A stretch of 64,000 nt of DNA from Brachyspira hampsonii 30446 (GTDB lineage Bacteria > Spirochaetota > Brachyspiria > Brachyspirales > Brachyspiraceae): NCBI RefSeq assembly GCF_000316195.1, contig NZ_JH994111.1:1024299-1088298 (forward strand), in the 5' to 3' direction. Shown one piece after another: positions 46,123 to 47,702 of the stretch (positions are counted from its first letter, which is position 1; each line of letters starts with the position of its first letter). Both the position numbers and the translations under genes were made by a program. Below the pieces are notes generated by a model. The model made no database searches and was not told the origin of the DNA. It saw only the letters and a list, made by a program, of their open reading frames with translations.

Positions 46123-47238
46123 TTATAAAACTATTAAATCTGTAGGAGTATCATTTATAGAAACTCCTCCGTTTTTAGTTACTATTACCATGTTTTCTAT
46201 TCTAACTCCGCCTAAATTTGGTACATATATTCCAGGCTCAACTGTAACCACGCATCCGCCTTCTAAAACATGGTCAACAAGAGGTGAAAGTCTAGGAGAT
46301 TCATGTATTTCAAGTCCTACACTATGTCCCAATCCATGTCCGAAATACTGACCGTAACCTTTGTTTTTTATTATTTCTCTTGCAGCATTATCAACTTCTT
46401 TTCCTAACACTCCTGAATGTATTGCTTCTATGCCTTTATGATGTGCTTCTTTTACTATATTATATATTTTACTCATCTCTTCAAAGTTATTTCCTTTGCC
46501 GAAGAAGAAAGTTCTTGTTATATCGCTTTTATATCCGTCTCTGGATAATCCGAAGTCCATAAGTATATTGTCGCCTAATTTTAATTTTCTTTCAGAAGGT
46601 ACTCCATGAGGAAGTGAAGTTCTTTCGCCAAAAAGCAGTATAGTATCAAATGCAGTTTTATCTCCTCCTTCTTTACGCATTTGATATTCTAATTCTGCTG
46701 CTAATTCCTGTTCTGTTACTCCCTCTTTTACAAATGCAAGCATTTTAGTCATTGCTTTTTCTGCTCTGTTAAGATTATCTTTTATTATTTTTATTTCTTC
46801 TTTTTCTTTTATATTTCTTATGGAGTCTATATCAGCCTTACTTATTGCTATTTTTATTGAATTGTTAACCATAGAAGCAACTATACTTTCATAATCAGAA
46901 AGATAAAGTCCGTTTTTAGCGACATGTATTTCTTTAATATTATTTTCTTTACAGAATTCAGCTACAGCATCTTGATAAGTTACAGCCACAAGTATAACAG
47001 TAGTTTTATGTGTAACTTTGGAGGCATGCTCAGAATATCTTGAGTCTACAAATAGATATTTTTTGCCATTACTGACAAGAAGCCAGCCGGCACTGCCTTT
47101 AAAACCTGTAAGATAGAATATATTTTCATTTTTTGTGATAAGAATATTTTCATTTGTTAATTTTAATAATCTTTCTAATCTTGCATCATAATTGAATTTT
47201 TTATTTTCTCCGCTTTCAGTTAAAGTTAATTTACACAT
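46123..47238 (-). CDS. M24-family Xaa-Pro aminopeptidase
   Basis: This ~371-residue metallopeptidase removes N-terminal residues before proline. The creatinase-type N-terminal domain ends near residue 130. The catalytic domain shows the metal ligands in order: DFGLSRDG and YKSDITRT (two Asp), GHGLGHS (His), HESP region (Glu) and VRIEN (Glu). I prefer the ATG at 47238 because a cggag site lies nine bases upstream; the frame also opens at a TTG two codons earlier. It lies 20 bases after the AroQ-like gene on the same strand. It is a housekeeping cytoplasmic enzyme. Confidence 0.9.
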   Translation of the reverse strand: MCKLTLTESGENKKFNYDARLERLLKLTNENILITKNENIFYLTGFKGSAGWLLVSNGKKYLFVDSRYSEHASKVTHKTTVILVAVTYQDAVAEFCKENNIKEIHVAKNGLYLSDYESIVASMVNNSIKIAISKADIDSIRNIKEKEEIKIIKDNLNRAEKAMTKMLAFVKEGVTEQELAAELEYQMRKEGGDKTAFDTILLFGERTSLPHGVPSERKLKLGDNILMDFGLSRDGYKSDITRTFFFGKGNNFEEMSKIYNIVKEAHHKGIEAIHSGVLGKEVDNAAREIIKNKGYGQYFGHGLGHSVGLEIHESPRLSPLVDHVLEGGCVVTVEPGIYVPNLGGVRIENMVIVTKNGGVSINDTPTDLIVL

Positions 47239-47258
47239 TTTCAAACTCCGTAATATAT

Positions 47259-47702
47259 TTAATTATTATTTCTTTTTTCCATTGATAATAAATGAGCTAG
47301 GGCTAATATATAACTATTATCACCAAACCCTGTAATTACACCCAATGCTATATCTGATAAATAGCTTTTACTTCTAAAATCTTCTCTTGCATAAACATTA
47401 CTCATACGAACTTCTATAAATGGTATATTGGTTGCCAAAAAAGCATCTCTTATAGCTATAGATGTATGGGCATAAGCACCTGCATTTATTATTATATATT
47501 CTATATTTTCATCATAGGCTCTATGTATTCTGTCTATAATAGCTCCTTCATGATTTGACTGAAAGAACGATACTTTTGCATTGCCTGATGCTGCTTCTTT
47601 AATCTTATTTTCAATATCTCCTAATGTAATATTTCCAAAAATTTTAGTCTGAGCTGCACCGAACATATTTGTATTAGGACCGTTTATAACTAAAATATTC
47701 AT
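47259..47702 (-). CDS. Type II 3-dehydroquinase-like protein with altered catalytic site
   Basis: The 147-residue protein clearly belongs to the AroQ (type II dehydroquinate dehydratase) family by fold: INGPNTNMFG at the start, IINAGAYAHTS near 70-81 and REDFRSKS near 106. But three catalytic positions are changed. The REP-loop arginine is Ala17, the catalytic tyrosine is Phe22, and the acid histidine of the EVH motif is Arg99 (EVRMSN). Asn73 and His79 remain. Automated annotation would call it aroQ, but normal shikimate-pathway activity is doubtful. It may bind a related ligand or have a non-catalytic job. It lies upstream of the M24 peptidase; ribosome binding site weak. Confidence 0.85.
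   Translation of the reverse strand: MNILVINGPNTNMFGAAQTKIFGNITLGDIENKIKEAASGNAKVSFFQSNHEGAIIDRIHRAYDENIEYIIINAGAYAHTSIAIRDAFLATNIPFIEVRMSNVYAREDFRSKSYLSDIALGVITGFGDNSYILALAHLLSMEKRNNN

Follow-up and report, generated by a model that had tools for sequence, protein, structure and literature searches.

The 64,000-nucleotide stretch of the Brachyspira hampsonii 30446 genome analysed here, hereafter referred to as the window, encodes a protein of the type II dehydroquinase (AroQ) family in which residues that define the catalytic site are replaced. Two questions arise from this locus, namely what such a protein does in the cell and how the organism makes dehydroshikimate. An initial sequence-only reading had proposed that the protein has lost three catalytic residues while retaining the motifs of the fold, and that either a new function or a non-catalytic protein is hidden under an aroQ annotation.

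The AroQ protein of the window and its catalytic residues

The gene extends from position 47259 to position 47702 on the reverse strand, with an ATG start at 47702, and encodes an aroQ-derived putative pseudoenzyme of 147 amino acids. Over its full length, this protein is unambiguously a member of the AroQ sequence and fold family. In particular, it matches the Pfam profile DHquinase_II (PF01220) with 172.7 bits (cut-off 23.3) and the aroQ profile TIGR01088 with 175.3 bits (cut-off 169.85), and its alignment to solved type II dehydroquinases is nearly free of gaps across both the lid and the EVH strand. Moreover, the PDB structures closest to an AlphaFold2 monomer model of the protein (mean pLDDT 92.3) are type II dehydroquinases, with a TM score of 0.93 to 3lwz. 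The type II fold is predicted to be intact, and the proposed retention of the fold motifs is borne out by profiles and model alike. The closest named relatives of the protein are those of Brachyspira.

In the AroQ enzymes of Helicobacter pylori and Mycobacterium tuberculosis, an arginine of the lid (residue 17 or 19, respectively) sets the orientation of the catalytic tyrosinate and also stabilises the enolate, the tyrosine (22 or 24), activated by an aspartate of the neighbouring subunit, removes the C2 proton, and a histidine (102 or 101) protonates the leaving hydroxyl (PMC6011038). The residue numbers 17 and 22 used here for the Arg and the Tyr are those of the H. pylori enzyme, DHQ2 (PMC6011038). 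All three substitutions named by the sequence-only reading are real. Specifically, counting from the ATG, translation and alignment place Ala17-Gln18 (codons 47649 to 47654, reverse strand) in the lid loop where canonical AroQ has Arg-Glu, Phe22 (47637 to 47639, reverse strand) at the position of the catalytic Tyr, and Arg99 (47406 to 47408, reverse strand) at that of the catalytic His of the EVH motif. The lid thus has the sequence GAAQTKIFG where the canonical motif is G-x-R-E-P-x-x-Y-G, and EVH has become EVR. Asp86, the residue contributed by the adjacent subunit, is present in the alignment, as are N10, N73, H79, E97, S101, R106 and R110. The lid Arg17, Tyr22 and the donor His99 are absent, and the protein falls outside the functional type II dehydroquinases because these defining catalytic residues are missing.

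The consequences of such changes have been measured in the AroQ of Corynebacterium glutamicum, where alanine at N12, R19, Y24, N75, E99, H101 or R108 leaves almost no activity, and where the H81A and R112A mutants have no detectable activity (PMC10772564). The window protein itself carries an Ala at the position of C. glutamicum R19, and it has neither the base nor the acid. As the alanine substitutions reported for these residues leave the enzyme inactive or nearly so, we infer from the sequence that it would lack dehydroquinase activity. That the protein is still a dehydroquinase, in which other residues stand in for Arg17, Tyr22 and His99, appears extremely improbable. The TIGR01088 score above cut-off and the intact fold would be in keeping with it, but once these residues are changed to A or S, F or L, and R or S, no group that could obviously serve as the base is left, replacement by alanine at these positions nearly abolishes activity (PMC10772564), and the activity would be unnecessary given the type I enzyme described below.

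Spread of the residue losses within and beyond Brachyspira

Among the 26 Brachyspira genomes compared, aroQ is intact in 17, frameshifted in one (B. alvinipulli, G015) and absent from eight (G001, G005, G006, G014, G018, G020, G021 and G041, with G020 being just 85% complete). Position 17 is A or S, position 18 is Q instead of the canonical Glu, and position 22 is F or L in every one of the 17 intact proteins. A sequencing error or a variant of a single strain is ruled out, as the loss of Arg17 and Tyr22 is genus-wide. The claim regarding the histidine, on the other hand, has to be narrowed. Read from tip sequences only, His99 is kept in 10 of the 17 proteins; the remaining seven, which form three separate groups, have Arg or Ser at this position, with R in the window genome (G000), G019 and G023, S in G016, G017 and G024, and S in G009. 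The proteins of G016, G017 and G024 have also changed at substrate-binding residues (H79N, S101R and R106A/S).

Outside the genus, the catalytic residues are kept. In a set of 80 non-Brachyspira AroQ proteins, from which the tandem second copies of some Spirochaetaceae were left out, Y22 and H99 are found in all and R17 in 79, the remaining sequence being unaligned at that position. Likewise, at additional loci from 20 spirochaete genomes, the primary AroQ retains R17, Y22 and H99, with the exception of the very divergent and poorly aligned L194.

Some further observations concern individual lineages. In B. alvinipulli, a short deletion near codon 33 of aroQ (L030:1483-1909, L083:4001-4427) produces the frameshift and the remainder of the gene is well preserved, so that it is apparently a recent pseudogene. 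In the genomes that lack aroQ, no relic of the gene is detectable beside pepP. G010 and the deep-branching G009 (L020, L026) both have Ser17 and Leu22; the AroQ tree places them together (UFBoot 96) but the PepP tree does not, a pattern that may reflect convergence, transfer or a state retained from earlier in the history of the genus. Among spirochaete AroQ proteins, unusual lids were seen at L182 (GPNLSHLKDREEKFY), L181 (GPNISHLHLREPEYY) and L194 (QYREKFY, poorly aligned), and the RE...Y arrangement is apparently kept in them.

Tandem aroQ genes occur in several Spirochaetaceae-type genomes (L009:1504-2391, L128:4001-4908, L135:2181-3080, L137:1530-2437 and L183:1234-2113). In the second copy, which follows a canonical one, R17 and Y22 are conserved, but positions 18, 86 and 99 are K, S and F, so that this copy lacks the neighbouring-subunit Asp and the His. 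A mixed oligomer of live and dead AroQ subunits produced from such tandem copies is possible. At loci for which more of the flanks was read, a gene for an aldehyde dehydrogenase lies upstream of the tandem and a gene for a sugar-isomerase-like TIM-barrel protein downstream.

A type I dehydroquinase and the probable displacement of AroQ

The question of how the organism makes dehydroshikimate is answered elsewhere in the genome. A DHquinase_II profile search of the whole 3.04-Mb sequence (99.99% complete) found no second aroQ; the search for an aroD, which had been suggested alongside it, found an intact type I dehydroquinase, AroD, that matches TIGR01093 with 193.5 bits (cut-off 139.3) and whose gene is located about 17 nt downstream of aroE. 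With positions assigned from family knowledge, we take the type I active-site motifs EWR, LRS..EGG, NHDF, AKVAYMP, SR and SSAPGQ to be intact in its translation. The Schiff-base Lys is presumably that of AKVAYMP and the His that of NHDF. Of the remaining pathway, the genome encodes AroB, AroC, AroE, AroK, three genes of the DAHP-synthase family and two of the EPSP-synthase family, one of the latter presumably being AroA and the other MurA. As far as the encoded proteins indicate, the dehydroshikimate step in Brachyspira can be performed by AroD.

Of the 26 Brachyspira genomes, 24 encode this enzyme, and a further copy, in G024, is cut by an assembly gap; since that copy continues into a stretch of N, a broken AroD in G024 is unsupported. 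In the profile search of the 26 genomes, AroD is missing from the incomplete G020 alone. As a separate observation, G025, G026 and G036 (L060, L061, L062) combine a canonical AroQ with DHquinase_I matches that are weak and divergent (E values of about 1e-16 to 1e-19).

The sister genera of the same family provide the relevant contrast. In G058, G063 and G123, AroQ is 72%, 75% and 59% identical to the window protein, respectively, R17, E18, Y22 and H99 are all kept, and the gene adjoins pepP; a profile search of these genomes, which are 96-99% complete, found no type I AroD. In the AroQ tree, the Brachyspira proteins form one clade (UFBoot 99) whose nearest relatives are those of G058 and G063. 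Across Brachyspira and its sister genera, in other words, the loss of catalytic residues coincides with the presence of AroD. Since the sister genera possess a catalytic-looking AroQ but no detectable AroD, AroQ seems to have been displaced by AroD in the ancestor of Brachyspira. As the stem branch of Brachyspira carries both changes, the order of events, with AroD first and the loss in AroQ afterwards, is what we infer from the distribution of the genes among genomes. A horizontal acquisition of a divergent AroQ, which shows about 60% identity to Deferribacterales proteins, is unneeded, the closest relatives being the 72-75% identical proteins of the sister genera.

When compared with canonical AroQ (PF01220, TIGR01088), the Brachyspira protein is alike in fold, in length, in N10, N73, D86, E97 and R110, and in the pairing with pepP that is seen in the sister genera and in Deferribacterales. 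It differs in that the lid Arg-Glu and the Tyr are replaced throughout, His99 in 7 of 17, and in that the reaction is covered by another enzyme. The nearest precedent is Aro1 of Candida albicans, whose type I dehydroquinase domain is inactivated by active-site substitutions and where the step falls to a type II enzyme, Dqd1; across species, the loss of Aro1 dehydroquinase activity correlates with the presence of the other enzyme (PMC9074039). The two cases are mirror images, in that an apparently dead enzyme is kept in place while an unrelated type does the step. In Aro1, however, the dead part is of type I and, as a domain of a five-domain protein, has to be kept anyway, whereas the Brachyspira AroQ is a free-standing type II protein, and its retention therefore needs a reason of its own. 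Bacillus subtilis, used as a control for the profile searches, has both the type I and the type II family in one genome, as in Brachyspira. Its type II enzyme (structure 1gqo) keeps the catalytic residues, so that redundancy alone does not force their loss. In the open-access literature searched, neither Brachyspira AroQ nor any pseudoenzyme of the type II dehydroquinase family was described, and expression or activity data for Brachyspira AroQ were likewise not found.

Selection on the retained protein and its possible role

The dN/dS ratios of aroQ, estimated by the Nei-Gojobori method with codon bootstrap, are uniformly low. They amount to 0.061 in the R99 clade (95% 0.000-0.230, a wide interval that goes with a small gene), 0.065 in the S99/N79/R101 clade (95% 0.025-0.127), 0.055 in G003/4/8/12/13 (95% 0.021-0.112) and 0.076 in a more divergent H99 set (95% 0.049-0.111), while pepP, aroD and aroE range from 0.03 to 0.22 in the same clades. 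The AroQ clades without Arg17, Tyr22 and His99 are constrained about as strongly as the neighbouring working enzymes. Accordingly, the low dN/dS in clades that lack all three residues indicates that constraint on AroQ persists after the catalytic loss.

The genomic context is also conserved. Directly downstream of aroQ lies pepP, which encodes an M24 aminopeptidase (46123 to 47238, reverse strand). Its likely ATG at 47238, preceded by GGAG, is located about 20 nt past the aroQ stop; the list of open reading frames has a TTG start at 47244. The aroQ-pepP pair is conserved within Brachyspira although the upstream gene changes, and it is found also in the sister genera, in Deferribacterales, in one Eubacteriales genome and in a few others. 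As this pair is the sole steady association of aroQ, PepP is proposed as a candidate partner. PepP itself can do without AroQ, as seven of the eight Brachyspira genomes that have no aroQ carry pepP, and the eighth is the incomplete G020.

Both observations bear on a different explanation, according to which AroQ has been redundant since the arrival of AroD and is slowly decaying, the apparent constraint being a lag or the result of selection against a toxic misfolded protein. The absence of aroQ from eight of the 26 genomes, the frameshift in B. alvinipulli, the stepwise erosion of active-site residues and a rate of evolution that was higher in AroQ than in PepP along the G016/G017/G024 branch (distance between G016 and G022 0.273 versus 0.126) are all compatible with such a process. 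Nevertheless, we consider it unlikely, given that dN/dS is about 0.06 in clades already without Arg17, Tyr22 and His99 at a synonymous divergence of 0.09-0.31, that 17 full-length reading frames are intact with 88 of the 147 positions invariant across Brachyspira, and that the pairing with pepP has outlasted changes of the upstream neighbours. The relative rate of AroQ and PepP was dropped as a main argument; the comparison is too noisy because PepP itself varies. AroQ is dispensable in part of the genus, as the eight genomes without it and the B. alvinipulli frameshift indicate, which also fits slow loss. The fairest reading is that of a useful but non-essential protein.

Retention could also be explained by a new catalytic activity, in which the remaining half-pocket (N10, N73, D86, E97, R110 and mostly H79 and S101) would act on another substrate without a Tyr base. 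Most ligand-binding residues are present in 14 of the 17 sequences and His99 in 10, and the lid region has acquired new, near-fixed residues (T/S11 and Q18). However, H79, S101 and R106 have been lost in G016/G017/G024 and His99 in three groups while the protein is still constrained, so that a single genus-wide catalytic role is hard to maintain. New catalysis is, in our view, rather unlikely.

The explanation we favour, with a probability of roughly 0.7, is displacement by AroD together with selected retention of AroQ as a non-dehydroquinase. A type II dehydroquinase would have been vertically inherited down to the common ancestor of Brachyspira. An unrelated type I AroD would have arrived, beside aroE, and would now carry out the dehydroquinase step. 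At or after this arrival, still in the common ancestor, AroQ would have lost its activity; the lid Arg and the Tyr would have gone genus-wide, and further losses would have removed the acid His in three groups and the substrate-binding H79, S101 and R106 (H79N, S101R, R106A/S) in a single clade. AroQ would survive as a pseudoenzyme with an intact fold and a sequence still under selection. The fact that the pocket erodes in some lineages and the rest of the protein does not points to a role without need of the pocket. This role would be non-catalytic, most likely that of an oligomer serving as a binding or scaffold partner, and we would give the scaffold role specifically somewhat less than an even chance. 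A variant in which AroQ had an additional, non-catalytic function already before Brachyspira arose, such as that of an oligomeric partner of the PepP encoded next to it in several phyla, and in which the AroD takeover exposed this function, seems improbable. Of the original proposal, the predicted loss of dehydroquinase activity under an intact fold and an aroQ annotation stands, and purifying selection fits a non-catalytic or new role.

Displacement with selected retention would make Brachyspira, a genus of gut spirochaetes, a clear-cut natural experiment on how one enzyme displaces another. The sister genera have a live-looking AroQ and no substitute, whereas Brachyspira has the substitute together with an apparently dead but conserved AroQ, and some species have dropped the gene. 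Through this contrast, a hidden non-catalytic function of AroQ becomes directly testable. Judging by its sequence, the Brachyspira protein probably does another job behind a misleading name, because natural selection still keeps it. The aroQ annotations in Brachyspira are, then, probably wrong as to function, inhibitors of AroQ would be expected to leave the pathway running in these organisms, and in metabolic models of Brachyspira the dehydroquinase step would belong to AroD.
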